Virus record (IMG/VR): IMGVR_UViG_3300037189_001089
Span: 1-62,175 of that record
Strand: one strand, 5' to 3'
Length of the DNA: 62,175 nucleotides
Source of the DNA: a virus
Shown here: positions 31,211 to 56,790 of the stretch, in pieces
Position numbering within the stretch: position 1 is the first letter of the stretch
Layout of the letters: every line of letters begins with the position of its first letter
The notes under the pieces: generated by a model
What the model was told of the DNA's origin: nothing
Databases searched by the model: none
The model's input: only the letters and a program-made list of their open reading frames with translations
Translations under genes and position numbers: made by a program

Positions 31211-31219
31211 ATTATATCA
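31211..31219 (-). promoter_or_regulatory. Extended -10 promoter (TGATATAAT) for the short chaperone
   Basis: An exact copy of TGATATAAT on the minus strand in a 51-base gap. The implied leader is about 32 bases and contains AAGGAG. Confidence 0.6.
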
Positions 31220-31224
31220 CAAAG

Positions 31225-31959
31225 CTAGTTATTTTTGAGTACTGTTGGATCTCTAAGGTCTTCATACGAAAGCCCCATTCCAATTCCAAATCCAGCCTGT
31301 TTTGCTGCAATTCCCTGCAAAGCAAGAATATCTTTTGCATCAGTGGCCCTACCACCTGAGGCCACCCTAGCCTTAAGGTTTTCCCATTCTTGCTGACCCT
31401 TAACCTTGCCATCATCTTTGCCAACCTGCTCATCTAGGTTAATGCCCTGTATAGCTGCTAGAAACTTTTTTTCTTCATAGTCAAGCTCTCTTGTAATTGA
31501 TAAGATTTGCATTAACTCTTCTATAGATATAGAGGACTCTAACTCGTCAAAATTCTTCCAGATTCCCAGCAAAAATACCTCAGTTTCAAGCTTAGCCAGA
31601 TCTAGGTTTTCCCAGGTTGTAGGCTTGTCATTTTCCTTAGTGTCGTCTTCAGCAATTTCTTCTTTTTGTTTTTTAAGATTTAGCCCTGATGAATAGTTCA
31701 ATAAATCATATAGGGTTTCTAGGTCAAAGCTATCTTCAATGTCTAATGGGGAGGCAAAGTGTTTTGGCATATATTGCTTCATGGCTATAAACGCACATTC
31801 AGCCAAAACGGCAAAGGTTTCTTCCTCTGTTCTGGACTCTTCAATTTTTGAAAAGGCATTCATTAATTCTTTTAAGTATTTTATTTTTAGTGGAATAACT
31901 TCAATTTCTAGGCCATCCACTGTGACAATTTTGTTTGTTTTGTATATCTCTGTAGGCAT
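31225..31959 (-). CDS. Tail assembly chaperone, long form
   Basis: A 244-residue protein. Residues 1-95 are paralogous to the short chaperone (LEIEVIPLKIKYLKELMNAF and ECAFIAMKQYMP). Residues about 110-244 form an extra domain ending in GIGMGLSYEDLRDPTVLKNN, which fits the T part of G-T chaperones. In most siphoviruses the long form is made by a programmed frameshift; here it is a single open frame. The ATG lies only 6 bases from a TAAAAT element, so the mRNA is probably leaderless. It helps load the tape measure protein and recruit tube subunits. Confidence 0.75.
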   Translation of the reverse strand: MPTEIYKTNKIVTVDGLEIEVIPLKIKYLKELMNAFSKIEESRTEEETFAVLAECAFIAMKQYMPKHFASPLDIEDSFDLETLYDLLNYSSGLNLKKQKEEIAEDDTKENDKPTTWENLDLAKLETEVFLLGIWKNFDELESSISIEELMQILSITRELDYEEKKFLAAIQGINLDEQVGKDDGKVKGQQEWENLKARVASGGRATDAKDILALQGIAAKQAGFGIGMGLSYEDLRDPTVLKNN

Positions 31960-31965
31960 TGTTTA

Positions 31966-31974
31966 ATTTTACCA
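31966..31974 (-). promoter_or_regulatory. Extended -10 promoter (TGGTAAAAT), probably giving a leaderless mRNA
   Basis: On the minus strand TGGTAAAAT is followed by six bases and then the ATG at 31959. Transcription starting about 7 bases after the -10 would begin at the start codon itself. It lies just after a strong terminator. Confidence 0.6.
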
Positions 31975-31980
31975 CAAAAC

Positions 31981-32009
31981 GACAAAACCCACCACAATTA
32001 AGTGATGGG
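31981..32009 (-). terminator. Intrinsic terminator after the major tail gene
   Basis: Stem 31988-31995 with 32002-32009 (8 pairs, one G-U), 6-base loop, followed on the minus strand by TTTTGTCGTTTT. It lies between the major tail gene and the chaperones, where phages commonly limit readthrough. Confidence 0.78.
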
Positions 32010-32030
32010 CTTGTCTTTTAGCTTTACAGA

Positions 32031-32757: not shown

Positions 32758-32766
32758 AGTATACCA
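32758..32766 (-). promoter_or_regulatory. Extended -10 promoter candidate for the major tail gene
   Basis: Minus strand TGGTATACT in the 80-base gap, with a weak TTTAAA about 16 bases upstream. Leader about 55 bases. The same TGGTATACT occurs at 40348-40356. Confidence 0.5.
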
Positions 32767-35665: not shown

Positions 35666-35674
35666 ATTATATCA
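35666..35674 (-). promoter_or_regulatory. Extended -10 promoter (TGATATAAT) after the capsid terminator
   Basis: Exact TGATATAAT on the minus strand, a few bases downstream of the capsid terminator. It would restart transcription for the neck genes. Leader about 10 bases with GGAG. Confidence 0.65.
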
Positions 35675-35681: not shown

Positions 35682-35709
35682 ACAAAAGAGGGCAGACTTT
35701 CGTCTGCCC
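35682..35709 (-). terminator. Strong intrinsic terminator after the major capsid gene
   Basis: Stem 35690-35697 with 35702-35709, eight perfect GC-rich pairs closed by a GAAA tetraloop on the minus strand, followed by TCTTTTGTT. It lies 20 bases after the capsid stop. Confidence 0.88.
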
Positions 35710-35728
35710 CCTGATGTGTTAATCAGTT

Positions 35729-36868
35729 TTAGGAATCTGACGCAGCATCTGCATAAGCAACTGCATCAAGCTCTTCCCACTGAAGGCCAAAGCGTACAAA
35801 TACTGTGTACTCAATTGTGTCCTTCTTTGGAACGTACTGACGGTTTACGGTGATATCTCTCTGGAATCCCCATACACGGTTCTGAGGGAATGTAAGGTCT
35901 ACATAACCTGCAGGGTAGTAAGGAACTTCCTGAACTTCGATACCTAGAACACGAGTTGTACGTGCTCCACCGAATGTCTGTGCAGCACCGTCAAGGTATG
36001 CCTGACGGTTACGCTCAGTGCCTGGACCACGGTCTACGAAAGCCTCAGCAATTGCATCAGCTAGTGTACCGTTGTTCTTGACGATTCCCTGGAATGCGTC
36101 TGTACCAGCATAGAACTTTAGGTTGTTCTTGATAGCACGGTACTTACGTGGCATTGCAAGAATAATGTCCTGCAGTACGTTTGTAGTCCATGCGTTGTCT
36201 GATACTGTCACGAGAGCCTCGTGTGCATCTCCATCTGTAGTTGCCTTGTGAACAAAGCCCTCCATAATGGAAAGGAATGCGCCAGTAGTACCGTCACCGT
36301 TAATAGCTAGATCCTCAATGTCATTCGCAAAAGCGTTTGTCATTAGACGAACTAGGTGATCCTCAAGAGCACCACCTTCAATATTGTCTTCTAGTGCCTC
36401 AGTTGATACTTCCCAGTCCAGACGAATCTTCTTGGTAGTAAGCTCAACCTTTGTAAATGTGGCACCTGCGTTTGTGAAGGTTGGGTCAGCCTGTGCAGCA
36501 GCACGGATAACACGCTCTCCAACGTTAACCTTCTCAAGCTCAATGGTGTTAGCTCTCATTGTAACTCTGCGTCCATCCTTTGCAAGGACTGTAGCGTCCC
36601 AAACATAGTCAATGAATCGACGAGCCTGCTCTGGAGCTAGGATACCACCAGGAGTACCTGTTGGATTAACGGCATTTGGACCAGTAGTCACACCCCAAGT
36701 AGGAGTAGCCAAGTTTCCTAGGCTAGCTGCTGGAGATAGGTTACCAAGTGGGCCTCTTGCGGTTGCGTCACCAACAGCACCAGATACGAATGATCCGTCA
36801 CCGTTGATTTCTGCATTACCCTCAGCGCTTGCACCTGGGTAATTTTTAATTAGTTCTTGTTCCGACAT
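35729..36868 (-). CDS. Major capsid protein (HK97 fold)
   Basis: About 379 residues from the ATG at 36868, which has AGGAGGTG 6 bases upstream; the GTG three codons earlier lies inside that ribosome site. The first 75 residues are Gly/Ala/Pro-rich and flexible, followed by a spine-helix region (PEQARRFIDYVWDATVLAKD), an E-loop-like segment, and a P-domain around LEDHLVRLMTNAFANDIEDL. C-terminal strands (VLGIEVQEVPYYPAGYV) fit HK97 coat proteins. It follows the protease-scaffold gene and is followed by a strong terminator, consistent with very high expression. Confidence 0.93.
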   Translation of the reverse strand: MSEQELIKNYPGASAEGNAEINGDGSFVSGAVGDATARGPLGNLSPAASLGNLATPTWGVTTGPNAVNPTGTPGGILAPEQARRFIDYVWDATVLAKDGRRVTMRANTIELEKVNVGERVIRAAAQADPTFTNAGATFTKVELTTKKIRLDWEVSTEALEDNIEGGALEDHLVRLMTNAFANDIEDLAINGDGTTGAFLSIMEGFVHKATTDGDAHEALVTVSDNAWTTNVLQDIILAMPRKYRAIKNNLKFYAGTDAFQGIVKNNGTLADAIAEAFVDRGPGTERNRQAYLDGAAQTFGGARTTRVLGIEVQEVPYYPAGYVDLTFPQNRVWGFQRDITVNRQYVPKKDTIEYTVFVRFGLQWEELDAVAYADAASDS

Positions 36869-38269: not shown

Positions 38270-38290
38270 GTCCCTCTAATTATAGCAAAC

Positions 38291-38319
38291 ATTTTATCAT
38301 TTTGATAACATTTTGTCAA
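38291..38319 (-). promoter_or_regulatory. Strong promoter for the protease/scaffold/capsid operon
   Basis: The minus strand has consensus TTGACA (38319-38314), a 17-base spacer and TAAAAT (38296-38291) with an upstream TG (TGATAAAAT). Transcription would start near 38284, about 15 bases before the ATG. A second TATAAT lies at 38284-38279 but lacks a -35. Confidence 0.8.
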
Positions 38320-38329: not shown

Positions 38330-39957
38330 TATTCGCTAGATCGTCCTTCTCCTTGCGGATTTCTTCCAGCAACAGTAGCTGGGCTGTCGGACGAGTTATT
38401 TGTCCTCTCAGCATCCCTGCTTCTGTTCTGTCTAGTATTTGCTGCTGCGTCAGCTGCCTGACGAGAGTTGAGCTCCATAGGAACATCCCCATCCTTACGC
38501 TGTGGCAGGTCAAGAAGTTCACGTGCTTCGTTAGGCACCATAATCTTATTACGAACGTATCGCTCAAGAATCTGTGATTGTGCAATTTCATCCGTCAGAG
38601 TCAGCTCATTGAACTTAAGCTCTAGAATGTCAGTCTTTTCCTTGATGATCTTGTTAACAATCTTTTCAAGGTGGTTCTGTGCTGGTCTTGAAACCTGCTC
38701 TTTAAATGTGCGGTCCTGAGACATAGCTGCAGCAATTCCAGAATCAGTTCCTCCAAGCTTAGAGATTGGAACCTGGTGTGCAATAAGAATGTCATCCCTA
38801 TTTTGCTTGCGGTACTCTTTAAAGGATCCCTCTTGAATACCGTTTTCAATTGGCTCCATATTAAACTCAACCTTGTTGCCATCTGAATCTCCAGGCAACG
38901 GAATGTATAGGGTTCTGTGCGACTGAGACTTTAGACCAGTTTGTAGGAATCTAAACATCTTGTCTTCTGCATCAGCTGACAGCTTTGCACCCTTAAGAGT
39001 AATGATGTAGCGTGGCACGGCCTTGTTCTGGAAATAGTCAATGTTGTACTGTGCAGCTAGTGAGTCTCCAATAAGAGAACTTACTGCAGAAAGAATGTCA
39101 GGAATTCCATAGAAAGTATTTAGTGGAGAATAAGACTTGTAGTGAATAAGCTCGTTTGGTCTTGGGTCTCCAGTTACTGGGTTTGGATTTTTTGCACCAA
39201 AGTTTCTAAAGTATACAACCTTGTTTCCAATAATCTGAAGGTAGCCATCACGAAGCCTGCGAACACGAACGGTGGTTGCTGGAACATGTCCAACATAACC
39301 AATCTGTCCTAGAGCAGTTCTTCCAATTTCAAGATAGCCATTACCAGTTGACTCAAAGTCAACAAGCATTTTCTTAATTGTGGTTGTAAATGAGTCATCG
39401 TCATTTAGTGACTCTAGCCAATCACGTAGCTCAAGCTTCATTCTTTCAATGCGCTTTCTTGCTTTGTCAACTGCTGAACTGTCTTCCCTGCTTTCTAGGG
39501 AAAGTGTGGTCTTGTCAGTTACGTGGAAAGCATATCCCAATCCAGCAATATTTGCTACCTTTGCATCAATAGCTGCGTGGTTTGCAAATGATGTGTCATA
39601 GTAGTTTGCCAATTCATAAAGATTGTATGGAGGTGTGATTACATCGAAAAGTCCGTATCCATTTCTATAAACAGAACCAGGATTAATCTGCTTGCTCTCA
39701 GCACCGTCAACACCTGTGCTTCTTGCTGAAGCTGATGAAAGATAGGACTCAGAGCTTGGGATAACATTGTTTGGAACTGAGTAGTCGTACTGAGCCTTAA
39801 TTAGTCTGTCAGTTCTACGCTTAAAGTTCTTTTCTATACCAGCATAATTTTTTAGCTGATCCCAGCTTTTATTAAAAGGATCCTGCTCTTTAAACTGGTT
39901 TCTTTCCTCATCCTGAGTATTCAGGGATGCGTTAATGTAATACTGGTTTTCGTCCAT
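38329..39957 (-). CDS. Portal protein
   Basis: A 542-residue protein with portal features of the PBSX/SPP1-like group: a helical N-terminus, YELANYYDTSFANHAAIDAK, a wing region, and DILSAVSSLIGDSLAAQYNI with QNKAVPRYIITLKG in the clip and stem area. The C-terminus is helical and polar (ADAAANTRQNRSRDAERT). It forms the dodecameric ring through which DNA enters and to which the neck attaches. The gene lies upstream of the protease, as usual. The terminase is not adjacent. Confidence 0.93.
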   Translation of the reverse strand: MDENQYYINASLNTQDEERNQFKEQDPFNKSWDQLKNYAGIEKNFKRRTDRLIKAQYDYSVPNNVIPSSESYLSSASARSTGVDGAESKQINPGSVYRNGYGLFDVITPPYNLYELANYYDTSFANHAAIDAKVANIAGLGYAFHVTDKTTLSLESREDSSAVDKARKRIERMKLELRDWLESLNDDDSFTTTIKKMLVDFESTGNGYLEIGRTALGQIGYVGHVPATTVRVRRLRDGYLQIIGNKVVYFRNFGAKNPNPVTGDPRPNELIHYKSYSPLNTFYGIPDILSAVSSLIGDSLAAQYNIDYFQNKAVPRYIITLKGAKLSADAEDKMFRFLQTGLKSQSHRTLYIPLPGDSDGNKVEFNMEPIENGIQEGSFKEYRKQNRDDILIAHQVPISKLGGTDSGIAAAMSQDRTFKEQVSRPAQNHLEKIVNKIIKEKTDILELKFNELTLTDEIAQSQILERYVRNKIMVPNEARELLDLPQRKDGDVPMELNSRQAADAAANTRQNRSRDAERTNNSSDSPATVAGRNPQGEGRSSE

Positions 39958-40340
39958 TAGTCAACTTCCAATGCTTCTTGTCCATAAGTATCTACAGTCT
40001 TCTGTGCGTCTGCCCAAGCGCCATAGTCAGTCATTGATGGGATGTATCCCTGCTTCATTCTGTCTACTTGCTCTGAATGTGTTTCATCAGATACCCTTGT
40101 GAGTCCTGGAACAAACTTGGCCTCTCCATCACCAGAATCGCCATAATACTTTGCAGCTGAAAAAAGCTCTGCTATTTTTGAAAGGTCACCCTTCATCGAG
40201 GGGATATTAAGAACGCTGCCTTCGCCATCTGTGAAGTACTTTCCGTCTGCTTTTTTGTAAACATATAGGCCCCATTCAACGTCTGTCTCTATTACTTGCC
40301 TGCGGACGTTGCCAACTTTTGATAAAATATCATAATCCAT
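39957..40340 (-). CDS. Unknown protein upstream of the portal
   Basis: About 127 residues from an ATG at 40340 (MDYDILSKVGNVRRQ). That start is preferred to the ATG at 40346 because the -10 TATACT ends 7 bases before it, implying a leaderless mRNA. The protein is mixed alpha/beta with acidic segments and no known motif. Being co-transcribed with the portal, it may be an internal head or packaging accessory protein (position only). Confidence 0.65.
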   Translation of the reverse strand: MDYDILSKVGNVRRQVIETDVEWGLYVYKKADGKYFTDGEGSVLNIPSMKGDLSKIAELFSAAKYYGDSGDGEAKFVPGLTRVSDETHSEQVDRMKQGYIPSMTDYGAWADAQKTVDTYGQEALEVD

Positions 40341-40347: not shown

Positions 40348-40356
40348 AGTATACCA
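40348..40356 (-). promoter_or_regulatory. Extended -10 promoter (TGGTATACT) inside a palindrome
   Basis: Minus strand TGGTATACT, embedded in the palindrome TAGTAT-GGT-ATACTA. It is followed by 7 bases and the ATG at 40340, consistent with leaderless initiation. Confidence 0.55.
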
Positions 40357-40358: not shown

Positions 40359-43300
40359 CTAGGCTGGTACTTTAATAGTGTTTGACCAAGAAATATCTTT
40401 ATATACGGTAAACTTTTCTGGATTAACCAAAATTCCAGAGGATTCATCATCAATAACAATCCTATTGGATCCTGTGTACTTTTCATAAATAGTCTTAGGA
40501 TCAATATTAAATGTTCTGCTTTGACTAATAATCTTAACATTTTGCCAAGTGTATGGCGGAACTGTGTCTTCATCAACAACAAGGTCAGTTTGTAGGTCTA
40601 TCCACTTACCTGACTTAGCCACTCCACCAGACACATAAGATCCAGTTGCGGTACTATTAATTGTAAAGGTATCATCAGTTGCTGAAACCACAACAGCATT
40701 AGCAATATTGTATTGCGATGGAACTACGTCAGTAATTGTTATAACTTCCCCTGGCTCAAACGTATTGGTAGTCGTGTATGTGACCTGAGTTCCTGTAGAT
40801 GTAACGTTTGTCACACCACCAACATGTAGAGATAGCATGTCTACCCAACTTCTTGTTTCAAGAGTCTCATCCTTTTCAATATTGGTAGCAAGGTTGTAAG
40901 ATATGTTATTGTATGTTAATGGACCATTAAGGCTTAATCTACCAGTTCTGTTACTAAAGTCTAGCAAATCAGGGAATTCAATTCCAATAACTGACCATTC
41001 TTCGTTGTATATAAATATCTTATTTACAGATTGTCCGTTTACGTAGTATTCAAGGTTGTACAGAATTTCTGATGACTCTCTGTCTACCCCAAAAATAAAG
41101 CCACGCTGTGTTGAGGAATCTGACTGAATGTAGAAATCAAAAATTCCGTCATTGTGGTCTATTGAAAAAATCATAATTGGGTCTGCTGGAAATTCTGCCT
41201 CTGAGAATCTAACCCAAAGCTGTAAAGAGCTAACCTCTGTATCGTTTGCCTCTGGCAAGTTAATTGGAATTGCTAGTCCACGATCTGTAACATTGCTAAA
41301 TTCTCCACGAATCTTCCATCCAGATTGTCTATTTAGATGTAGGTATGGTGTGCTCTTTTTGTATGTAGCAATTGGGTTCTTTGCCTTTAGGTCATAGTAC
41401 AGTCCAGATCTTGAATAGTAGTAAACTGGAATTCCAAATCTAGACCCAACAGGAGTAAAGTCAGTTCTTTCCAAAACGTGTGATGCCAGCTGAAGCTCTC
41501 TTAGGTTAATTGGGTGATGAAGAATTCCGTCTGACTTAAAGTCAAGGTGATAAACAATTGCATAGTCCTCAAAGTTAATTGGCCTATTGTTTTGAGTTTT
41601 GGTTGGTGGATAGATTATCGTTCCAGTTGTTACCTCAAATGCTGTGTCTTCCCAATTTAAATCTATGGCTGCAGGATCGACTAAACCAGAGGTTAGCGGT
41701 CTGTAATAGTTTTCAAAGTCTAGAAGGCTATTGTTTGCCCCATTAGCAATAGACTGGAAAGAAACGTAGCTCCTCAAAACGCTAGAGTCTGTCTGGAAGA
41801 AGTTTGTCCTGACAACATTGTCTGACATATCTTCATAGTCTTGCCATCCAGTATAAAATTCATTGTTAAGATCTTCATAAGTTAGAATTGTTGGTACTGA
41901 ATATTCAATTTGCAAATCACTGTATAGCCACGGAGTTACTTCCTCTACCGCCAAGCTTGCGGGAGGTTCAGGGAATTGCTGATTAAACTGAATAGAGTCT
42001 AGTTCAAAATTAGTGTTTCCATCGTAATCAATGATTGCCTTTCCAAAATAGGAAAGCGGCATGTAGTCTTCCCAGTATCCAGCAACAGCAATATCAGCAA
42101 AGAATATGCCATACTTGTCAATCGCAGTTAGGGTATAGTTTGCTGTGTGATTATAAACAATGTTTGTGTCAGCTATATCAATAGTTCCATTTGAGTCAAA
42201 TGCTGAAAAAATCTTTCTACTATTAAATGCTGCGTCAAAACCAACCTTATAGATTCTTCCATTAAATTTTGTTGTGCCATCTCCTGCTACATAAACATCT
42301 AGCATTGATGAGTCACTAAAGAACCTATTTATTTGAGTACTTCTGTTTGCTATAAAAGTTGGAATATTTATTCCTACCGCAAATTTTTCGTTTTCCTCAA
42401 TTGTTTTGTTTACAATGCTAGCTGTATTGCCAGAAATGTTTATGCTGTAGTTTACAGTGGTTTCGTCTAGGGATATTAAGAAAAAGTCTTTTGTTATTTT
42501 ATTTGTTATCTTAATTAGTGGCTTGTTTTCTTCTGTACCGTCAGTTTTAAAAACGCCATAAAACGACTGGACTGGATCATTCAGCATTCCAAGTTTGTCA
42601 AAGTAGATAAAGTCTGTATCTGAATCCCAATCCTCATTTGGACTTAAAGTTAAGTATTTTCTTAGTGCAACATCATCTGGATCAAGAGTGTCTGGCTCTA
42701 TTGCCTGTATGTCATCATATAGCTCTTTAGTTGTTCTAGAGCCTATCTCAAAACTTGGTAGCTGATAGTCTGGCAGTCTTAAGGTTTTTGACTCTGCCTC
42801 TACGTTGCTAAAGAATGCCTGTTTCCAGTTAGCAAAGTCAGGGTAGTTATAGTTAGAGGCATAGTTAGCAAATGCATAGTCATTAAATGCAGTAATAGAG
42901 TTAATTGATGAGTTTGTTTGTTCTGGAGAAGCAACAGCTTGTCCCCAAACCCAACGCCTCTTTGTTACCTCTGTTGGAATACCATAAGAGTAAATAGAGA
43001 AAGTATCAATATCAACTGGGTCAACATCTTCGTATGCATAGAATCCAACCCAGTCTTGATTTTTACCATTTATAACTTCTGCTGGTAGCTCTAGAGTTTC
43101 TTGATCAATTTCAAAGTTAATAACTTCTTCACCATTAAGAATCACAGTCATAGAACTTTTTAGTTCTCTAATGTGTACAAGCATTGGCCTAAACCATTCT
43201 CCAACAAAGTGTGAGCCTATAAAGTCTCCAACCTTAAAAGTTAAATATGCCCCATCTGCGTATAGACCATCAGAGCTGCCAATTGGTCCAAATATTTTTC

Positions 43301-44257: not shown

Positions 44258-44266
44258 ATTTTATCA
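44258..44266 (-). promoter_or_regulatory. Extended -10 promoter (TGATAAAAT)
   Basis: Minus strand TGATAAAAT between a strong terminator and the LamG gene. The leader is about 8 bases plus the ribosome site GGAG. Confidence 0.55.
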
Positions 44267-44274: not shown

Positions 44275-44303
44275 AGAAAAACCCTGCCAAATTAATGACA
44301 GGG
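44275..44303 (-). terminator. Intrinsic terminator closing the fibre region
   Basis: Stem 44282-44289 with 44296-44303 (8 pairs including one G-U), 6-base loop, followed on the minus strand by TTTTTCTTATT. Confidence 0.87.
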
Positions 44304-44319
44304 CATTCTTAGAGTTTGT

Positions 44320-45239: not shown

Positions 45240-45268
45240 AGTGTATCATAAAAATTGAATATTGTAAA
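45240..45268 (-). promoter_or_regulatory. Promoter candidate for the sulfotransferase-like gene
   Basis: Minus strand TTTACA (45268-45263), 17-base spacer, TACACT (45245-45240) with upstream TG (TGATACACT). Confidence 0.5.
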
Positions 45269-46234: not shown

Positions 46235-46242
46235 TTGTTGTC

Positions 46243-46575
46243 CTAAGCTGTTATCTCGGAGCCGAATACACTAAAAGTTAAAAGATCGCTTGATGCCCTA
46301 ACAGTAATAACATCTGCCGCATCGAGAGTAATTCCAAGAGTAAGGGTTGTTGAATCAGAAGCTGCTACTGACACGTCATAGGCAATATAATGTTGATTTG
46401 CTAGCGTAGCGCCATTTGGTCTAATCGCAATCCTGTATGTTGCATCCTGGGTGTGTCTGTTTGCAATTACAAGTGTTGATATTACCGCCTGAGTATTTGC
46501 TGGAACTGTGTATAGATCAATTGCAGTGTCTGCATCCTGTGCACTTTGCCCTAGAACTTTGTATGTCGTTGCCAT
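46243..46575 (-). CDS. Small beta-sandwich virion protein, cassette C
   Basis: A 110-residue protein with LYTVPANTQAVISTLVIANR and DSTTLTLGITLDAADVITVR. It is related to the 101-, 120- and 151-residue proteins and the N-terminus of the 412-residue protein in this region; all share a strand around residue 30-40 (xxxLVIANxxxxDATYRI). It probably forms a small fibre head or linker. Confidence 0.72.
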   Translation of the reverse strand: MATTYKVLGQSAQDADTAIDLYTVPANTQAVISTLVIANRHTQDATYRIAIRPNGATLANQHYIAYDVSVAASDSTTLTLGITLDAADVITVRASSDLLTFSVFGSEITA

Positions 46576-46866
46576 TTAGGCTCCCATCATTAAAAATACT
46601 TGTGGTGTTGGATCAGTAGTGACATTATCCCATGTCAATCCAGTAGCAGAACCACTGTCTGCTTTTAAGTATTGTCCATTTGTACCTACCGCCAGAATTC
46701 CAACGGTATCATTGGCAGTTCCTACAAGAATATTACCCTTAGCATCAATTATTGCTTTATCAACATACTGATCATGAGAGTGTGGGCCAACACCAATTGG
46801 AATCCAGGTATCAGTTGCTGAATCATAAACATATGCTGGTCTTGTTGTGGTTCCTATAGTTGCCAT
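46576..46866 (-). CDS. Short fibre linker protein, cassette C
   Basis: A 96-residue protein with DAKGNILVGTANDTVGILAV then GTNGQYLKADSGSATGLTWD. This pattern is common in phage fibre shafts. It is homologous to the 74-residue protein of cassette B and the C-terminus of the 412-residue protein of cassette A. The ATG is 9 bases from a TGATATAAT element, so its leader is at most about 3 bases. Confidence 0.75.
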   Translation of the reverse strand: MATIGTTTRPAYVYDSATDTWIPIGVGPHSHDQYVDKAIIDAKGNILVGTANDTVGILAVGTNGQYLKADSGSATGLTWDNVTTDPTPQVFLMMGA

Positions 46867-46875
46867 AGTGATTTA

Positions 46876-46884
46876 ATTATATCA
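46876..46884 (-). promoter_or_regulatory. Extended -10 promoter (TGATATAAT), near-leaderless
   Basis: Exact TGATATAAT on the minus strand, with nine bases (TAAATCACT) to the ATG at 46866. The expected start is the A three bases before the ATG. Confidence 0.65.
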
Positions 46885-46914
46885 TACGTTGATTAGATAC
46901 CATGAAAGTGTTAG

Positions 46915-48576
46915 CTAATTCAGGCTAATGGTTCCAGTTCCAGAGGTAAAGGTTGTAACTTTATTTGATCCAACTGTAGAGGTAGTACTAACCAATCCAC
47001 TACCAACAGTTAAATTAAGCGCAGCATCATATCTAAGAATTACCACACCAGAAGCACCATTTCCAGCATTAGTATTCCAAGTTCCATTACCTCCACCACC
47101 TGAGCCAGTATTTGTTGTAGCATTTTGAGGTGATGCACCAGTTATATCTGAACCATATGCCCAGCCTCCTGCTCCACCACCACCAGTTCCACCTAATCCG
47201 CCTGAGCTGCCCGCAGCTGGAGAAGATCCAACGTATACACCTCCACCACCACCACCTGCACGTTTAATTGGTGTTCCAGTGATTGATGACGTTGCACCAG
47301 ATCCTCCATCTCCAGCAACTATTTGACTTGGTCCAATCATTCCAGCAGATTCAGCACCTCCACCACCACCAGCAGAGTATACGGGACCACCGCTTGCTCC
47401 AGCAAATCCCTGATTGGTAGTTCCTGCAGCTCCAGAGATTCCACCACTGGCTGCCTGTGAGTTTCCTCCTCCTCCAGAGCCACCTCCCAAAGGACCAAGG
47501 GTAGACCATGTTCCGCCAGTTCCGCCACCGACTGATGTTATGTTATTAAATACTGAGTTTGATCCTGACGAACCTCTAGAGCCACCACCATTAAATGCTG
47601 CTGCCAAAGCTCCAGCGCCACCCGCTCCAACAGTTACTGTGTAGTTTGTGTTTAAATTTATAATTGAAACTGATTCTGCAGAAGCTCCTCCGCCAGAGGA
47701 CTCTCCAGCAATAGATGAGCGATATCCTCCAGCACCTCCACCTCCACCATGTTGCAATCCACCGCCGCCGCCCCCTGCGATAACAAGATATTCTATTGAA
47801 GCTGGTGGTGGCAACAATGCAAGACCAGCGGCATGTATCTGTTGAGCCTCAGCAGTAGTTAGATTACGATTAAAGATTCTTACGTCAAAGACTTCCATAG
47901 CAGTAACTGGCCTGGTTTCATTTGCAGAAATATCTCCTAAAGAAAATCCACTTACAAGGTTTGGTGTTACACTTGAGCCGCCACCTTCTGCAGTTACGCT
48001 GTACTCTACTCCATTAATAACACACCTTAGGCCAGTTTGATCCATGGCTCCTGATTTTATCCAAGTAACGTGAATCCATTCATTTAGCGGATATATTTGA
48101 TTTGTACTAAATCTTTGAGCTGCCCACAAATCCCATCCAATATCATTTACTGGAGAAAATGCCAAACCATATGCGTTAATTCCTTGACCAACACCAGCAC
48201 CACCACCAATTCCCCAGAGTCCATCTTTTACATCAGCTTTTCTTTTAATCCACATTGAAATACTAAAATTTGGATTACCAGACCATGGCATTGAAGTATT
48301 ATGAACAACTGATGCTGGAGATTCTGTAATAGACAAAGACTTTACTCCTGCAGTAAAACCATTTGAAACGTAAGATGTGTTAGTGGTAGATAAATTATAT
48401 GCAGTATTATCGCCAAAACCACCACCAGTGGCAAGATCGTTAGCAGAATCTTGAAAGGTATACCAAGCTACCATAGAGTCTTTTGCAACTATAAAATTTT
48501 GTGGTGATCGAAATATTGGTCTTGTGCCAGTCCAGTTACTAATTTGACTAGAAACAAATGCTCTGTTTCTTTGCAT
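46915..48576 (-). CDS. LamG plus glycine-rich adhesin, cassette B
   Basis: A 553-residue protein. Residues 1-260 form a LamG/concanavalin-like domain (AWYTFQDSANDLATGGGFGD, then NFSISMWIKRKADVKDGLWG and a polar return strand). From about 263 it has YLVIAGGGGGG and a Gly-rich region with HGGGGGAGGYRSS, then the conserved C-terminal strand pair VVILRYDAALNLTVGSGL. The fused carbohydrate-binding LamG makes it the most elaborate of the three adhesins. It probably contacts a host surface glycan (inference). Confidence 0.82.
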   Translation of the reverse strand: MQRNRAFVSSQISNWTGTRPIFRSPQNFIVAKDSMVAWYTFQDSANDLATGGGFGDNTAYNLSTTNTSYVSNGFTAGVKSLSITESPASVVHNTSMPWSGNPNFSISMWIKRKADVKDGLWGIGGGAGVGQGINAYGLAFSPVNDIGWDLWAAQRFSTNQIYPLNEWIHVTWIKSGAMDQTGLRCVINGVEYSVTAEGGGSSVTPNLVSGFSLGDISANETRPVTAMEVFDVRIFNRNLTTAEAQQIHAAGLALLPPPASIEYLVIAGGGGGGLQHGGGGGAGGYRSSIAGESSGGGASAESVSIINLNTNYTVTVGAGGAGALAAAFNGGGSRGSSGSNSVFNNITSVGGGTGGTWSTLGPLGGGSGGGGNSQAASGGISGAAGTTNQGFAGASGGPVYSAGGGGGAESAGMIGPSQIVAGDGGSGATSSITGTPIKRAGGGGGGVYVGSSPAAGSSGGLGGTGGGGAGGWAYGSDITGASPQNATTNTGSGGGGNGTWNTNAGNGASGVVILRYDAALNLTVGSGLVSTTSTVGSNKVTTFTSGTGTISLN

Positions 48577-48938
48577 TATGAAATCCTATTTACATAACCT
48601 GAAATGTTTATTACGTTAGCTGCTGATGCAAAAGCTCTTACGTTTCTTGCTGCTGATCCTGTACCGCTCAAAGTTAGGCCAGGGATAACTAGAACAAGTC
48701 CAGCTTCTGCAGGAATGGTAATTTCAATAAGGTCATCAGGACTTGTTACACCGCCATACTCGATAGTTAATTTTCTGTCAGTGCCATCAGTATTGTTTGC
48801 ATAAAGCCAAACTTCATCAATAACTGAGTCAGAGTTTCCTGTAGCATGAATTAGAGTTCCAGCAGTTGCTGTTTGAGCTACCTTAATTGGCTCTCCGCCA
48901 GTGGATGCACTTAGGTGAAGCTTTGTAAAAGTAGACAT
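48576..48938 (-). CDS. Small beta-sandwich virion protein, cassette B
   Basis: A 120-residue protein with DEVWLYANNTDGTDRKLTIE and TIPAEAGLVLVIPGLTL. It is the cassette B member of the small beta-sandwich family. It overlaps the adhesin start by one base, suggesting the two are made in equal amounts. Confidence 0.72.
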   Translation of the reverse strand: MSTFTKLHLSASTGGEPIKVAQTATAGTLIHATGNSDSVIDEVWLYANNTDGTDRKLTIEYGGVTSPDDLIEITIPAEAGLVLVIPGLTLSGTGSAARNVRAFASAANVINISGYVNRIS

Positions 48939-48947
48939 AATTTATTC

Positions 48948-49172
48948 CTATCCAAAAATCTGTGATGCTAGAACTGCTTGATCTGAAGTGTAGTCTGGCT
49001 CTGCAATAGTGCCCCACTCAAGACCTGTAGTTGCGCTAGAGTTTGCTCTTAGATAAGTTCCATTAGCACCAGCTGTTAGATTATCTAGAACATTATCAGC
49101 TGTTCCTACTAGCAAATCGCCTTTGGCATTTACCGTTGGAATTATGTCAGCAGTATCTCTTGACCTAGTCAT
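48948..49172 (-). CDS. Short fibre linker protein, cassette B
   Basis: A 74-residue protein with NAKGDLLVGTADNVLDNLTA and YLRANSSATTGLEWG, homologous to the 96-residue protein of cassette C. Its mRNA probably has a leader of about 3 bases. Confidence 0.75.
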   Translation of the reverse strand: MTRSRDTADIIPTVNAKGDLLVGTADNVLDNLTAGANGTYLRANSSATTGLEWGTIAEPDYTSDQAVLASQIFG

Positions 49173-49181
49173 AATAAACTA

Positions 49182-49190
49182 ATTATATCA
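49182..49190 (-). promoter_or_regulatory. Extended -10 promoter (TGATATAAT), near-leaderless
   Basis: Exact TGATATAAT on the minus strand, nine bases (TAGTTTATT) before the ATG at 49172, the same spacing as at 46876 and 56782. Confidence 0.65.
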
Positions 49191-49195
49191 TAGAG

Positions 49196-49549
49196 TTACT
49201 CTGGAATTACGACGGCATCCCAAGAGCCATCTTCTTCATTCCAAGAATACATTGCACCATCAGTTGGATAAGCTACTGGAGCTTCCCATAGTGCAGTATC
49301 TTCATTAAGAACCCATGATGCGTATGGTTTTGGCGGTACAAAAGCATCAAGTGCCTCATCATACTTGTAACCAATACCTGCATAGTTCTTACGGTAGTTA
49401 CCGTTGTATGAAGTTCTTTTACAGGTCTGCCCCCGAAATTCTCCATACCATACTTCAGGGTGCTTACCCTCAATTAGTTCTGTTTCATCAATTCCGACGA
49501 TAACCTCTGTTACGATGTTATTGTCGTCTAGAAATGCATAGTGTGCCAT
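49196..49549 (-). CDS. Conserved fibre-associated phage protein
   Basis: A 117-residue protein beginning MAHYAFLDDNNIVTEVIVG, with the block TSYNGNYRKNYAGIGYKYDE and DAFVPPKPYASWVLNEDT. This pattern is widespread in aquatic phages near tail-fibre genes, but its role is not known. It has several short Trp-containing strands suggesting a repeated beta structure. It sits at the end of cassette A; AAGGAG precedes the ATG. Confidence 0.8.
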   Translation of the reverse strand: MAHYAFLDDNNIVTEVIVGIDETELIEGKHPEVWYGEFRGQTCKRTSYNGNYRKNYAGIGYKYDEALDAFVPPKPYASWVLNEDTALWEAPVAYPTDGAMYSWNEEDGSWDAVVIPE

Positions 49550-49560
49550 TTTTTATCTCC

Positions 49561-51321
49561 TTATGTCCAACTGACGTTGCCAGTTCCTGCTGTTATTGTT
49601 GTAACTTTATCAGATCCTACTTCTGTTGTAGTTCCTGTCAAACCTGCGCCTATTGTAATGGTTCTGGTGCTTGGGTAGCGAATAATTACAACTCCCGAAC
49701 CACCATTGCTCTGACCAATTGTTGATGTACTTGTAACTGCACCATTTCCACCACCGCCTTGGCCTCCAAGTCCTTGGGTGCCACCTGAAGCACCACCACC
49801 ACCTCCACCTGCATAAAAAACAGATGACCCAGTAATAGATGAAGCTGCTCCAATACCACCATTTCCTGCTGAGTTTGATGTTGCATTAGCACCCACAGCT
49901 CCTGCACCACCGCCACCACCACCTGGGTATGGAGGCTGATATCCTATCCATCCATTACCACCAGCAAATCCTTGACCAGATGTTCCTGCTGCACCCAAGT
50001 TTGCACTTGTTGGAGCTGAGTCTCCACCACCACCAGAACCACCAACTCCTGCTAGTCCTACTGTGTAAGAACCTCCTCTACCTCCACCTATTGCTGTAAT
50101 AGAGCTAAGAACTGAATTTCCTCCAATAACACCAGATGAGTTAACTCCTCCTGCGCCACCAGAGCCTATTGTAACTTGATAAGCAATTCCCCTAGCAACA
50201 GACATTGTTCCAGTCAAAAGGCCTCCAGCGCCACCGCCACCGCCTCCACCACCGCCAGAGTGGGCACCACCACCGCCTCCACCACCGCCAAGGTTTTCAG
50301 AACCATTTGCACCTCCATATTGAGATGTTGGCCTACCTCCGCCGCCACCTCCACCTGCAAGTAGAAGATACTGAACTTCAAAAACTGGCTCTAGAATTAC
50401 ATTTCCAGTTCCAGCAGTAATTGTGGTTATTCTATTTTCCCCAACTACTGTAGAAGATCCTGTAAGCCCTGCCCCCAAAGCAATCTCATGTGTTGATGGA
50501 TAACGAAGAATTACAATTCCAGAACCACCTGGCCGACCATTGCTTACAAATGCTCCAGTTCCTCCGCCTCCGCCACCAGAGCCAGTATTAGCAGTTCCTG
50601 CAACAGCCGCTCCACCACTAAAAGGTGCACCACCTGAACCACGGCCACCGCCTCCTGAGCCTCCTAGTCCAAAACCATTATTGGCGTTATATCCCGAACC
50701 ACCACCACCACCTGCACGTGTAACAGAAGAACCAGTTATCGAAGAGGCTAGCCCATTTCCACCAGAGCCACCGCCATTATTGGCATTATCGGCTAATGAG
50801 TTTGCACCTGCCGCACCTGCGCCACCACCGCCACCACCGCCGTTATTTCCACTGCTAGAACTACCTCCACTAAATCCCTGACCAGTGGTACCTGAACCAC
50901 CAGTACCGACAGTAGCCTGATCTCTACCAGCCCCACCACCAGAGCCACCATTAGATCCAGACAGATAAGAATCAGCTCCCTTTCCTCCTCCGAGGGATAC
51001 TATTGTTGAAAGATTAGATGGATTCCCACTTGTAGACATTGCTCCACCAGCACCTACAGAAACAGAATATTGTGCTCTAGGGGTTAAAGGAATTTGACTC
51101 TCTGCTGTAGAATTTCCTCCAGATGTTCCAGCAGATGTTCTGTATCCGCCTGCGCCACCGCCGCCTCCACCGTTGTCGTTTCCACCGCCACCGCCTCCTG
51201 CGATAACTAAATAGTCAACCAATACTGGCTCAATATAGGTCAAATTTCCAGAAAGCATAGACTTGTACCCTACTCTAGGTAGCGTAAAAGTTCCTGCTCC
51301 TGAAAATTTATAAACGCCCAT
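49561..51321 (-). CDS. Double glycine-rich adhesin, cassette A
   Basis: A 586-residue protein containing two complete glycine-rich domains: residues about 35-310 (YLVIAGGGGGGNDNGGGGGG) and about 318-586 (YLLLAGGGGGGGRPTSQYGG). Each ends with a VILRYPS / VIIRYPS strand, an IGAGLTG turn and ITAGTGNV. It therefore looks like an internal tandem duplication of one adhesin. Its ATG overlaps the stop of the small beta protein (TAATG). Probable receptor-binding protein. Confidence 0.82.
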   Translation of the reverse strand: MGVYKFSGAGTFTLPRVGYKSMLSGNLTYIEPVLVDYLVIAGGGGGGNDNGGGGGGAGGYRTSAGTSGGNSTAESQIPLTPRAQYSVSVGAGGAMSTSGNPSNLSTIVSLGGGKGADSYLSGSNGGSGGGAGRDQATVGTGGSGTTGQGFSGGSSSSGNNGGGGGGGAGAAGANSLADNANNGGGSGGNGLASSITGSSVTRAGGGGGSGYNANNGFGLGGSGGGGRGSGGAPFSGGAAVAGTANTGSGGGGGGTGAFVSNGRPGGSGIVILRYPSTHEIALGAGLTGSSTVVGENRITTITAGTGNVILEPVFEVQYLLLAGGGGGGGRPTSQYGGANGSENLGGGGGGGGAHSGGGGGGGGGAGGLLTGTMSVARGIAYQVTIGSGGAGGVNSSGVIGGNSVLSSITAIGGGRGGSYTVGLAGVGGSGGGGDSAPTSANLGAAGTSGQGFAGGNGWIGYQPPYPGGGGGGAGAVGANATSNSAGNGGIGAASSITGSSVFYAGGGGGGASGGTQGLGGQGGGGNGAVTSTSTIGQSNGGSGVVIIRYPSTRTITIGAGLTGTTTEVGSDKVTTITAGTGNVSWT

Positions 51322-51626
51322 TAGGAAATTTCTACTCCGCCAATATGGAACGTTACGCTAGTTGCTGAGGCTCCACCCTGAATAGTCTCTGTTGCATTAA
51401 GAACTTGTTTAATATCTAGAACGGCTGAGTCACGTGCGCCAACCGTAACTGTTTCTGCAAGCTTAACACCCGCTATAGAAAAAGTAAAAGTCTGGTCTGA
51501 ACTTGATGTATTTGCTACAACAATATTTGTCACCACCGTTGTTGTTGCTGATGGTGTTGTATATAGGGTTGTTGTCGTGGTTGTTGTAGCTGCCCCACGA
51601 AATAAAGTTTTTGATACTGTAGCCAT
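51321..51626 (-). CDS. Small beta-sandwich virion protein, cassette A
   Basis: A 101-residue protein with a threonine run (AATTTTTTTLYTTP) and TNIVVANTSSSDQTFTFSIA. It is the cassette A member of the small beta family. GGAGG precedes the ATG. Confidence 0.72.
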   Translation of the reverse strand: MATVSKTLFRGAATTTTTTTLYTTPSATTTVVTNIVVANTSSSDQTFTFSIAGVKLAETVTVGARDSAVLDIKQVLNATETIQGGASATSVTFHIGGVEIS

Positions 51627-51649
51627 TAGTTACTACCTCCAAATTAAAT

Positions 51650-51658
51650 TATAGCATA
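51650..51658 (-). promoter_or_regulatory. Extended -10 promoter (TGCTATAAT)
   Basis: Minus strand TGCTATAAT in the 39-base gap before the 101-residue gene. Leader of about 17 bases with GGAGG. Confidence 0.5.
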
Positions 51659-53370: not shown

Positions 53371-56343
53371 TTAGGCCTGAGCTTCCTTCCAACTCAACCT
53401 ACCCACTACCTCAACTGCAGAGTCAGAAAGATTTGTAACTACAATAGAAAGAACGTCTGGACCATCTGGGTAAACATTTGCATTAGCAAACAGTGTACCT
53501 CCACCCAAAACTGAGTTTCCAAGATCACGAACATCTTCTAGGTCAATAGATGAGGTTCCCTGTGAATAGAAACCACCAGTAATCTCACCACCAAGAATAA
53601 TTGTATTTTCTGCATCTGAGTAGTCTGCAATCTGAGACAGAGAAGAGTTTGTTAGTACGTTAGATCCTCTAACAACGTTTTCCCACAAAGTTGCAGACGT
53701 TGGAACACCATTAAGAATTGCAGTTACCAAAAGCTTTGAGTCTGCTGAAGAAGTAATTACACCAACTGACTTAAGTGTTAGCTGCATACGGTTAATAAGC
53801 TCACGCTGACCAAAGTTAGCTGAAATACCATTATCTACTGATGGAGCTACACGAATTGAAAACAGGGCTTTTTGGTTACCCCCAGAAAAACTAACAGGAG
53901 TAGCATTAAGATCTCCAATTAGTGGCAAAGATAGGGAAATGATCAATCCAGAAATATTTGTTACAACTGTGTTTGACTGAATGCCATCACCAGTAACCAA
54001 CATTCCAACAGTTATTCCAGCTGCACTTTGAACAGATATTTCTCTTCCCGAATAAGTATTTGCTGATGTCTCTATTGGAGATGTTAGGGCTGCTGGGACA
54101 GTTGTTGTCTTAGTCTGACCATAAGTAAATAGCAAAGACTTATCGTCATCAAATCCACCATCCATAATTACTGATGTACCCCAGTGAGAAATAGAAGCTG
54201 AGAATGTTGGATACGCAAGCTCAAGAGACACAGGGGCAGAAGTTGTTGGAGCAAAAGCCTGTGGGGTTCCTGTTGCCATTGGTGAAAATACTACGTTTGT
54301 TGGATTAGCAATAATGGCTGCAGTGTTAAACTTAATTGTTGCTCCATCAATTTGAGAAACATAAGTGTTATCTGGGAAGTTTGGATGAATTACTCTCTGT
54401 CCAACTTGTATGCCAGTTGTTGATACAACTGTTCCAATGTTGCTACCAGCAGCAATAGTCACGTTAATGGTTGCACCAGACTTTTCACGTGTTATTCCAG
54501 TAAACGATGTAGCAGTCTTGCCAGAATAGTTTACATACTCATAAACAGTGCCACCACGAATTAGCAGGGTGCCACTTGATGGAAAGCCTTCAGTACTGTC
54601 TACGTTAATGGTAGTGTCTGTAATTAAAATTGATGCAGCTGTTCCTGCTTTAGTAGTTTTTGCAAAAGTATTTGACTCATATCTAGCTGGAATGTTTCCA
54701 GAGCGCATGTATGCCTCAGCATTAACGTTGTTGTTTGCCATCTTGTGAACTGGAGTAATGTTTCCATCTACCCCACGAAGTCCCCAGCGAATATATCCTG
54801 CACCATACCAAGAGTAATCAATGTAGAACATCTGCATCTTTGTTAGATCAAGATTATACCCAGATGGGCCATTTCCATCCATTGTGTCTAGGTTCCACTC
54901 AGACTGAGGAATCTTTGTGTCTACAGTTTTTGCAACAAGGGCATACTGTGCCGTAGCTCCACGGTATGATGGAGAAATAGTCATGCTGGTGTCACTAGTA
55001 ATACCCTCAACACGATATGACTGTCCACGAATAACAATAAAGTCTCCAGGAGTTAGCTGCTTAGAAAAGTTTGTTGGGAAAGCAGCGTTTGTTTGAGAAA
55101 CTGTGTTGCTTCCATTTGTTACTGTGACCTTTCCAGAAATCTGGTAAGTAGAGCTTCGTCTTACCGCATAAAGCTTCTGACCATCAAACTCAAAGAATAC
55201 ACCGTTCTGGCTGTCAAACATTCCAATCAGGTTTGAACATCCATACCAGGTGTCAATTGTCACATAGTAATTTCCAGATGCCTTTGTCTGCAGTGGGGCT
55301 GCATCTGCCTGTACCTGGAAAATGTTATATCCCAAAATTTCAATAATGGTAAACTCGCCATTGTAGTCTGGCTCGTTTGCACCAAAGATTTTTACTGTGC
55401 TTCCAGGCTGTAGGTTGTGCTGCTCTTTTGTCTGAACAGTAATAATGTTTCCAGAAGATGTTAGTGATTCAATCGATAGGTTTGGCTTAAGAACAGTACC
55501 AGAAGAAATCTGCATACCCTTACCAGACTGATAGCGGAAGTACCTACGAGTCTGACGAATAGCCTGCTGGTTATTTGATGATGCATTAGCACTAAACAAA
55601 ACACCACCATCAAATGGTCTGTGTAGGAACTGTGACTGTGGTCTAACGTATAGCCTTACAGTTCCTGCAAGGGTTCCAGTTGGTATGTTTTTTGCATAGT
55701 AGACAAAGTTGGTAGCATTTGTAACTCTAGCTACATAGAAAGATCCGTTAGGGGCATTTGTGCTTGCTGTAATACCAGAAATAGCAATTTCGCTACCAAG
55801 CGATAGTCCATGTGGGACTGTGGTTGTCACGGTAATTGCTCTACCAGAATATGAAAGTGTTGGGGTACCACCAATTGCAGAGTTTGTGTAAGCGGTTCCA
55901 ACATACAGAGCAGTCTTATTTACATCAAAGATGTCATTAATTGTTGAGCTTATGTTAATTGATCTTGCTGTATAAGTAAATGTTGTTGCTGTAGGCACTG
56001 TCTCAATAATAAAGTTACCGTTCGCAATTGACAAGAATGTATCCTGAACGTTTACTGGAGTTCCAACAGTAAGTCCATGAGGGCTAGTTCCAGTCGTTAC
56101 AGTTACTGTTGTACTGTTTTGTGGAATATTAATTGCTGATATGTTTGGAACGGTATTTGAAGATGGATATGCAAAAGGACGATTATTTACAAGACCTAGA
56201 TTCTCCCACTTAGAAATCTGCATACCATACTCAAAGTCGGTATCTACAAGTGCCTGTGGGCTTGAATTACGAAGTTTGTTTACTGAATCAAAATACTGCT
56301 CATCTAAAAATGCTCCAGTATCTGGTCTTAAATATCCTGGCAT
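53371..56343 (-). CDS. Large tail fibre protein (990 aa) with repeated modules
   Basis: The N-terminus contains LVDTDFEYGMQISKWENLG, a signature of large structural proteins in aquatic T4-like and other phages. Three copies of a small beta module lie at about 65-130 (HGLTVGTPVNVQDTFLSIAN), 160-215 (HGLSLGSEIAISGITASTNA) and 285-340 (HNLQPGSTVKIFGANEPDYN). The centre has further strands including a KTATSFTGITRE segment. The same module occurs in the 599- and 1294-residue proteins. Probably a long fibre or baseplate-wedge-like protein. Confidence 0.8.
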   Translation of the reverse strand: MPGYLRPDTGAFLDEQYFDSVNKLRNSSPQALVDTDFEYGMQISKWENLGLVNNRPFAYPSSNTVPNISAINIPQNSTTVTVTTGTSPHGLTVGTPVNVQDTFLSIANGNFIIETVPTATTFTYTARSINISSTINDIFDVNKTALYVGTAYTNSAIGGTPTLSYSGRAITVTTTVPHGLSLGSEIAISGITASTNAPNGSFYVARVTNATNFVYYAKNIPTGTLAGTVRLYVRPQSQFLHRPFDGGVLFSANASSNNQQAIRQTRRYFRYQSGKGMQISSGTVLKPNLSIESLTSSGNIITVQTKEQHNLQPGSTVKIFGANEPDYNGEFTIIEILGYNIFQVQADAAPLQTKASGNYYVTIDTWYGCSNLIGMFDSQNGVFFEFDGQKLYAVRRSSTYQISGKVTVTNGSNTVSQTNAAFPTNFSKQLTPGDFIVIRGQSYRVEGITSDTSMTISPSYRGATAQYALVAKTVDTKIPQSEWNLDTMDGNGPSGYNLDLTKMQMFYIDYSWYGAGYIRWGLRGVDGNITPVHKMANNNVNAEAYMRSGNIPARYESNTFAKTTKAGTAASILITDTTINVDSTEGFPSSGTLLIRGGTVYEYVNYSGKTATSFTGITREKSGATINVTIAAGSNIGTVVSTTGIQVGQRVIHPNFPDNTYVSQIDGATIKFNTAAIIANPTNVVFSPMATGTPQAFAPTTSAPVSLELAYPTFSASISHWGTSVIMDGGFDDDKSLLFTYGQTKTTTVPAALTSPIETSANTYSGREISVQSAAGITVGMLVTGDGIQSNTVVTNISGLIISLSLPLIGDLNATPVSFSGGNQKALFSIRVAPSVDNGISANFGQRELINRMQLTLKSVGVITSSADSKLLVTAILNGVPTSATLWENVVRGSNVLTNSSLSQIADYSDAENTIILGGEITGGFYSQGTSSIDLEDVRDLGNSVLGGGTLFANANVYPDGPDVLSIVVTNLSDSAVEVVGRLSWKEAQA

Positions 56344-56362
56344 GTGTTCCTCTCAAAATTTA

Positions 56363-56371
56363 ATTATATCA
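56363..56371 (-). promoter_or_regulatory. Extended -10 promoter (TGATATAAT)
   Basis: Exact TGATATAAT in the 30-base gap. The leader is about 12 bases and contains GAGAGG. Confidence 0.6.
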
Positions 56372-56373
56372 CA

Positions 56374-56772
56374 CTAGATGCCAAGCCACCACATGTCAGA
56401 TAGCGAAGCATTGCTAGTACCACCAGATCCTCCGCCACCTCCGACAACTTCAAAGGTTACTTTGTTGGTGTTTGTATCATATACAGCAGTTAGTCCAATG
56501 TGATCATCGTGTGCCACCATTGGGGCAACAAGATCTTTTGTATAGTTTTCATTAAGAATAAAGTTTAATTTTCCAGTTGAATCATTGTATGTTACATCAA
56601 CACCGTTTTCTGTGTTTGATGAAACCATAAGACCAACAACATCTTGAATAATTTCATTAATTGAGGTATCAAGTTTTAAAGCTAATAGTTCAATATCTCC
56701 AGAAACATCAACGACGTCTCCAGATAATGGAAAGGGAAACTCATAAATTGGACTTCTTCCAGAGGCTGCCAT
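56374..56772 (-). CDS. Small fibre protein
   Basis: A 132-residue protein with a beta-rich body (YNDSTGKLNFILNENYTKDL), a glycine linker near residue 112-118 and a C-terminal SNASLSDMWWLGI. It is first in the minus-strand fibre operon after the hydrolase gene. Its ATG lies 9 bases from a TGATATAAT element. Confidence 0.7.
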   Translation of the reverse strand: MAASGRSPIYEFPFPLSGDVVDVSGDIELLALKLDTSINEIIQDVVGLMVSSNTENGVDVTYNDSTGKLNFILNENYTKDLVAPMVAHDDHIGLTAVYDTNTNKVTFEVVGGGGGSGGTSNASLSDMWWLGI

Positions 56773-56781
56773 AGTAGTTTA

Positions 56782-56790
56782 ATTATATCA
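56782..56790 (-). promoter_or_regulatory. Extended -10 promoter (TGATATAAT), near-leaderless and divergent
   Basis: Exact TGATATAAT on the minus strand, nine bases (TAAACTACT) before the ATG at 56772. It is back to back with the plus-strand promoter at 56802-56830. Confidence 0.65.

Follow-up and report, generated by a model that had tools for sequence, protein, structure and literature searches.

Extended -10 promoters at fixed gene junctions, some with predicted leaderless starts, in a Stanwilliamsviridae-like virus and its relatives

Why should the same nine-base string, TGATATAAT, stand six times before genes of one virus, and what would read it? An initial annotation, made from the letters alone, had proposed a phage-wide late promoter of the extended -10 type, without a clear -35 element and with leaderless starts behind it. 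Here, that proposal is examined in the window (the whole stretch of DNA analysed, which spans an entire IMG/VR virus record, is 62,175 bases long, and is classed as linear and as a probable fragment) and in the relatives of the virus that it represents.

The virus and its relatives

Nearly all genes in the window lie on the minus strand. PHROG matches identify a terminase, a Cas4-like exonuclease, UvsX, a DnaE-like polymerase, a primase, a helicase, SSB, a tape measure protein, a protease, a portal and tail-fibre proteins, and Pfam places a phage capsid protein at 35729-36868. The DnaE is 56% identical to those of Streptomyces phages, BillNye and Wakanda among them, and the protease is 54-57% identical to proteins of Streptomyces phages; a DNA-level search against named phages gave no matches. 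The gene order portal-protease-MCP-tail-TMP-DnaB-primase-SSB-DnaE is common to the window and to Wakanda, which is classed in the Stanwilliamsviridae. By synteny and protein similarity, then, the virus is Stanwilliamsviridae-like, and its named relatives infect Streptomyces.

A WhiB-like gene is encoded by 18 of 19 large relatives (for example, among L332-L339), although none was identified in the window. The WhiB-like family has been described as exclusive to Actinobacteria (PMC10245118). Taken together, the protein similarity, the gene order and the WhiB-like genes of the relatives give good support to a probable actinobacterial host, which is the setting that the initial annotation had presupposed. 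The only two binned contigs recovered by a DnaE search of genome contigs would have named a member of the Flavobacteriia and a cyanobacterium as hosts; these were taken as binning errors.

The comparison set holds 320 relative loci found with four protein queries. For each orthologue the 80 bases upstream were collected, and near-identical sequences were dropped. Most relatives are, like the window, fragments. They are, of course, non-independent samples, which counting by protein group corrects in part, and a few of their start codons may be misassigned.

Placement of the motif

The six exact copies of TGATATAAT are all on the minus strand, which is the coding strand, and all in gaps before genes, at the positions where they had been reported (31211, 35666, 46876, 49182, 56363 and 56782). 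The window as a whole would be expected to hold 0.88 copies; its gaps alone, by 1000 dinucleotide shuffles, 0.06. The pattern TGNTANAAT has 12 coding-strand copies in the 2,349 non-coding bases against 0.59 expected, a number that no shuffle of 1000 reached, and just one copy on the opposite strand of the gaps. The initial annotation had named equal frequency inside genes as the outcome that would count against it. On the coding strand, gaps hold 5.1 copies per kb and genes 0.18, so the proposal survives that check.

It might be argued that TATAAT-like strings are simply what one finds in AT-rich gaps. The gaps are indeed AT-rich, and a first-pass count over the whole window (27 copies against 16.7 expected) looks modest. 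Whole-window shuffles understate the enrichment, however, because copies inside genes dilute the count, and gap-specific counts and conservation are required instead. Base composition does not account for the 12 gap copies with their strand bias, for conservation at the same junction in as many as 57 of 57 relatives, or for a distance peak (below) that scrambled motifs do not give. Gap shuffles and conservation agree that the exact copies exceed chance, as had been claimed; conservation already refutes the chance reading, to which we attach a negligible probability.

The variants listed earlier are also real sites (Table 1), with corrections. Those at 32758 and 40348 are TGGTATACT, which fits TGNTANAMT but not TGNTANAAT, and one placed at 51650 begins at 51648. 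Some copies inside genes are promoter sites set in the upstream gene's 3' end, where relatives keep the motif. One of these, at 18661, was on the earlier list but does not lie in a gap; three others (16269, 15321 and 12574) were absent from the earlier list, as was a conserved site at 38279 that is not within an upstream gene's 3' end.

Table 1. Promoter-like sites and terminator-like hairpins in the window (starts and leaders are predictions; SD, Shine-Dalgarno)
Feature	Position	Strand	Remarks
Extended -10 TGATATAAT	56782..56790	-	9 nt to ATG 56772, no SD; predicted +1 A 56775 (3-nt leader); 9 nt kept in relatives L170 and L171
Extended -10 TGATATAAT before virion protein 53371-56343	56363..56371	-	SD-led, 19 nt
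Extended -10 TGCTATAAT before 51321-51626	51648..51656	-	SD-led, 21 nt
Extended -10 TGATATAAT	49182..49190	-	9 nt to ATG 49172, no SD; predicted +1 A 49175
Extended -10 TGATATAAT	46876..46884	-	9 nt to ATG 46866, no SD; predicted +1 A 46869
Extended -10 TGATACACT with -35 TTTACA (5/6, spacer 17)	45240..45248	-	before GTG start 45221, SD-led
Terminator-like hairpin GCCCTGTCATTAATTTGGCAGGGT and T tract	44281..44304	-	upstream of 44258 promoter
Extended -10 TGATAAAAT before 40359-44243	44258..44266	-	directly 3' of terminator-like hairpin; SD-led, 14 nt
Extended -10 TGGTATACT	40348..40356	-	overlaps upstream stop codon; 7 nt to ATG 40340; predicted leaderless
Double extended -10: TGATAAAAT (38291, TTGACA at spacer 17) and TGCTATAAT (38279)	38279..38299	-	before head maturation protease; motif in 18/24 relatives
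Terminator-like hairpin after major capsid protein gene	35687..35712	-	
Extended -10 TGATATAAT	35666..35674	-	directly 3' of post-capsid terminator; SD-led start ATG 35649
Extended -10 TGGTATACT before Ig-domain major-tail-protein-like gene	32758..32766	-	61-nt leader with SD
Terminator-like hairpin AAGCCCATCACTTAATTGTGGTGGGTTT after major tail protein gene	31985..32012	-	fills -35 slot of 31966 promoter
Extended -10 TGGTAAAAT	31966..31974	-	6 nt to ATG 31959; predicted +1 is A of ATG; predicted leaderless gene in tail-assembly-chaperone position
Extended -10 TGATATAAT before 30867-31172	31211..31219	-	SD-led, 38 nt
Extended -10 TGGTATAAT before tail gene 16840-18639	18661..18669	-	in upstream gene's 3' end
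Extended -10 TGGTACAAT before 15805-16251	16269..16277	-	in upstream gene's 3' end; SD-led in window, predicted leaderless in many relatives
Full promoter TTGACA-17-TATACT, TGG before hexamer	15321..15349	-	before 15034-15300, ahead of helicase/primase genes
Full promoter TTGACA-18-TAAACT, TGC before hexamer	12574..12603	-	before SSB gene 11884-12546, embedded in primase gene 3' end

As in extended -10 promoters generally, TGn lies directly upstream of a TANNNT hexamer, and this arrangement is conserved at fixed junctions while the flanking DNA diverges. TGNTANAMT stands upstream of 31225-31959 in 49 of 49 relatives (with a spacing of 5-9 nt in 48 of them), of 30867-31172 in 57/57, of 40359-44243 in 12/12, of 16840-18639 in 35/36 and of 15805-16251 in 41/43. 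Before the gene that precedes portal (39957-40340) it is found in 19 of 20 non-redundant relatives, overlapping the stop codon of the upstream gene and exactly 7 nt from the start in all 19; relatives do not conserve another ATG, at 40346, which places the start of this gene at 40340.

The same 80 bases upstream of other genes are nearly devoid of the motif: tape measure (2/50), portal (0/20), capsid (0/31), DnaE (1/53), UvsX (0/49), terminase (0/41), primase (0/31) and helicase (1/52). Matched windows inside genes almost never contain it. The contrast is one of 95-100% at motif junctions against 0-4% at others. The motif also precedes SSB in 53 of 60 relatives, the major-tail-protein-like gene in 36 of 46, and 15034-15300 in 7 of 10. 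TGn precedes 42 of 79 and 127 of 253 sense TATAAT boxes upstream of starts, compared with 2 of 32 antisense; about half of the TATAAT boxes that precede starts are without it.

Distance to the start codon

In bacteria, a TA-like signal some 10-12 bp upstream marks leaderless genes, which make up more than 20% of genes in Actinobacteria (PMC3160421). In these viruses, the distance from the -10 hexamer to the ATG has two peaks, one at 5-10 nt, mostly without a Shine-Dalgarno (SD) sequence, and one at 13 nt or more, with it. An SD-like string accompanies 11 of 130 short-spaced starts (10 nt or less) as against 213 of 237 long ones. A spacing of exactly 6 nt recurs in 40 separate protein groups, while no other distance between 3 and 14 nt is used by more than 11; two scrambled-motif controls lack the peak. 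The 7-nt class comes mostly from one gene. Among the 34 sequences of the 9-nt class, 32 have a purine as the seventh base past the -10 (97% when averaged over 8 groups), and because of this purine a 3-nt leader is likely for the mRNAs of that class.

A -10 held about 6-9 nt from the ATG and a missing SD, two sequence marks of actinobacterial leaderless genes, occur together here. The individual spacings reported earlier hold: 6 nt at 31966, 7 nt at 40348 (to the conserved ATG 40340), and 9 nt with an A at the seventh base at 46876, 49182 and 56782. What needs revision is their generality. The comparison supports starts that are leaderless or have a 3-nt leader as one part of the family; they are not its rule, since ordinary SD leaders serve more than half of the sites. 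The box at 38279 is 9 nt from the protease ATG at 38269, yet GAGGG lies close to that ATG, so that this start may belong to either class.

The orthologues of 15805-16251 keep their promoter while the leader flips between 5-9 nt without an SD and 14-17 nt with one. Judged by these leaders, the series is a natural swap between two modes of translation initiation.

Even between highly diverged viruses, the start geometry of the gene before portal and of the gene in the tail-assembly-chaperone position varies by no more than one or a few bases. The identical geometry occurs in cultured Streptomyces phages, which makes the rule directly testable. Two start codons in the window (40340 and 35649) are also corrected by this analysis.

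Several other arrangements deserve record. The adjacent genes 30867-31172 and 31225-31959 (the tail-assembly-chaperone position) share a phrog_10504 domain, and each has its own promoter, one SD-led and one predicted to be leaderless. Farther along the minus strand, three proteins with a phrog_2295 domain (45275-46234, 46915-48576 and 49561-51321) are interleaved with small phrog_33513/3030 proteins, so that tail-fibre-like modules are repeated through 45275-51321; near-leaderless promoters are predicted for two of those small genes. At 1231, before a flavodoxin-like gene, TGGTAAAAT is followed 7 nt on by a GC-rich hairpin, GGGGAGAGGCTTCTGGTCTCTCCCC (1199-1239, minus strand). Given that distance, the transcript would start in or beside the stem, and the hairpin might serve as a 5' stabiliser or an attenuator.

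The -35 region, terminators and the choice of sigma factor

At 297 distinct sites in structural loci, the place of the -35 has no clear base preference, and a match to TTGACA of at least 5/6 at spacer 16-18 is, for most structural junctions, no commoner than at control spacers. A perfect TTGACA (6/6) is present at 49 of 49 scored SSB junctions and at 7 of 7 scored 15034-15300 junctions. Among structural loci the exceptions are the 44320-44541 junction, with an intermediate signal, and 38291, with TTGACA. Most structural junctions therefore have no -35 element; SSB, 15321 and 38291 possess one. The comparison in this respect upholds the earlier description of phage-wide extended -10 promoters that mostly lack a -35 at structural genes. 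One might imagine that TGn and the -35 compensate for one another across relatives; in TATAAT boxes of structural loci such compensation is not significant (6/160 versus 14/184, P 0.17).

The -35 box of the SSB promoter doubles as the codons for Phe-Asp-Lys (FDK), close to where the primase gene ends. In each of the 42 sequences with FDK at this place the Asp codon is GAC, even though GAT is the commoner Asp codon overall (11,646 versus 7,868). Because GAC is always chosen despite this, the DNA sequence of the SSB -35 is itself probably under constraint. On the plus strand, at 56802-56865, TTGAAA-17-TATAAT with TGC before it runs into a hairpin with five T (AACACTCCGTCAAAAGAGTGTTTTT); the predicted RNA, of about 25 nt, would be antisense to the main genes.

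At some structural junctions, the place of the -35 is taken by something else. Upstream of 31959, a hairpin with a T tract sits where a -35 would be, its stem ending about 10 nt before the TG. In 49 relatives it folds far better than shuffled sequence (median z -6.0), while its stem sequences vary widely. Similar hairpins lie in the window upstream of the promoters at 35666 and 44258. In two cultured Streptomyces phages, Wakanda and Annadreamy, the capsid gene is likewise followed by a hairpin and next by a promoter; Wakanda repeats the layout after its major tail gene. Such junctions, we infer, end the transcripts of strongly expressed genes and set transcription going again at a different level.

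These observations are best explained, and we hold this with considerable confidence, if the motif is the core of phage-wide extended -10 promoters that belong to the host's primary sigma factor, some of them giving leaderless mRNAs. The factor would be of the sigma-A/HrdB type. TGn is known to bypass the -35 contact (PMC7403470); here, it would contact sigma domain 3 and so substitute for the contact between the -35 and sigma domain 4. The first transcribed base would be roughly the seventh past the -10; a 6-nt gap would then give an mRNA beginning at AUG and a 9-nt gap one with three extra nucleotides. Messages with these 0-3-nt leaders would be translated by leaderless initiation. At some junctions, notably those after the capsid and the major tail genes, a terminator would end the upstream transcript and a promoter would start the next about 10 nt on; with this order, each block would be expressed from its own dose-setting promoter.

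Must the sigma factor be the host's? A phage-specific sigma factor, or a phage RNA polymerase, that recognises TGnTATAAT would suit a motif so unusually uniform and so often without a -35 at structural genes. The consensus, however, is that of the housekeeping sigma. Further, a set of 19 large relatives, including three named phages whose whole genomes were searched, gave no match to Sigma70 region 2 and none above the cut-off to sigma region 4, most relatives being fragments. With no phage sigma matched, the host's is favoured, and we regard a dedicated phage factor as very improbable.

A more substantial alternative keeps the host polymerase but makes these promoters a true late class, in which a phage factor alters the polymerase (for example, by moving sigma domain 4) and extended -10 promoters replace those that depend on a -35. 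This would fit the perfect TTGACA of the SSB and helicase-operon promoters and its absence from most structural ones. It would also fit Wakanda, where TTGACn-16-18-TAnnnT occurs outside the structural block 51 times in sense and once in antisense orientation. A candidate regulator exists as well: in cells, proteins of the Wbl family bind sigma domain 4 (PMC7363131; PMC10245118), and it is a WhiB-like gene that 18 of the 19 large relatives carry.

Yet in three large aquatic relatives, extended -10 promoters without a -35, predicted leaderless ones included, lie outside the structural block too, on either strand, and the accessory regions show no clear excess of -35 (TTGAC) promoters. Conversely, Wakanda has TTGAC at some structural promoters. 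We therefore consider a true late class unlikely. The label "late" in the initial annotation was likewise dropped after a region-by-region scan of the three large relatives and Wakanda: the motif is not restricted to structural or late genes, but stands also before non-structural genes and, in the large relatives, on both strands of regions where no structural genes are detectable.

A bolder version would join these elements into a two-tier code. Replication genes would use TTGACA with an extended -10, and virion genes an extended -10 alone, with a terminator in the -35 slot; a phage WhiB-like protein that binds sigma domain 4 of the host would shift the polymerase off the first tier and onto the second, and an altered state of translation during infection would favour leaderless messages. 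This is a speculation to which we assign a low probability, lower than that of a true late class by itself. Host primary sigma acting on extended -10 promoters is the reading carried forward here.

Relation to known promoters

The type of promoter is itself known. What is new is how widely, and with how constant a geometry, it occurs across a virus family, together with the terminator-coupled layout. The literature searched contained no promoter study and no mapped transcript 5' end for this virus family. To our knowledge, virus genes that use leaderless initiation are hardly known, although this mode is abundant in actinobacteria. The analysis thus offers a promoter map, with predicted start points, for a widespread group of uncultivated viruses.

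The late promoters of T4, which are read with the phage sigma gp55, also do without a -35. Their consensus differs from the TGn extended -10 here, and no phage sigma was found in the relatives, most of them fragments. T4 also has AsiA, which, like gp39 of the Thermus phage P23-45, moves sigma domain 4. The middle and late promoters of P23-45, which work with gp39, resemble those described here in that extended -10 promoters exist beside -10/-35 promoters (PMC7403470); here, however, the extended -10 promoters are not confined to late genes.

In Mycobacterium tuberculosis, promoters have no -35 consensus, and TGn raises their strength and marks the strongest of them (PMC3898074). The predicted leaderless starts share with actinobacterial leaderless genes a -10 a few nucleotides from the ATG, no SD, a purine start, no -35 consensus and the strengthening TGn (PMC3160421; PMC3898074). 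They differ from the general run of such genes in a near-consensus TATAAT or TATACT, and in forming a set fixed at orthologous virus genes. TGn occurs at 7% of TANNNT promoters in M. tuberculosis (PMC3898074); here, it precedes about half of the sense TATAAT boxes.

Another parallel is with Cluster O mycobacteriophages such as Corndog, for which promoters of the host sigma (SigA) are predicted to have their +1 on the start codon's first base (PMC4351075). In Corndog, 8-9 promoters are predicted; two of them, PL1 and PR2, would give leaderless mRNAs, and PL2 has a similar layout (PMC4351075). Unlike in Corndog, the leaderless and the SD-led classes here recur over many protein groups, family-wide, and with terminator-coupled junctions.
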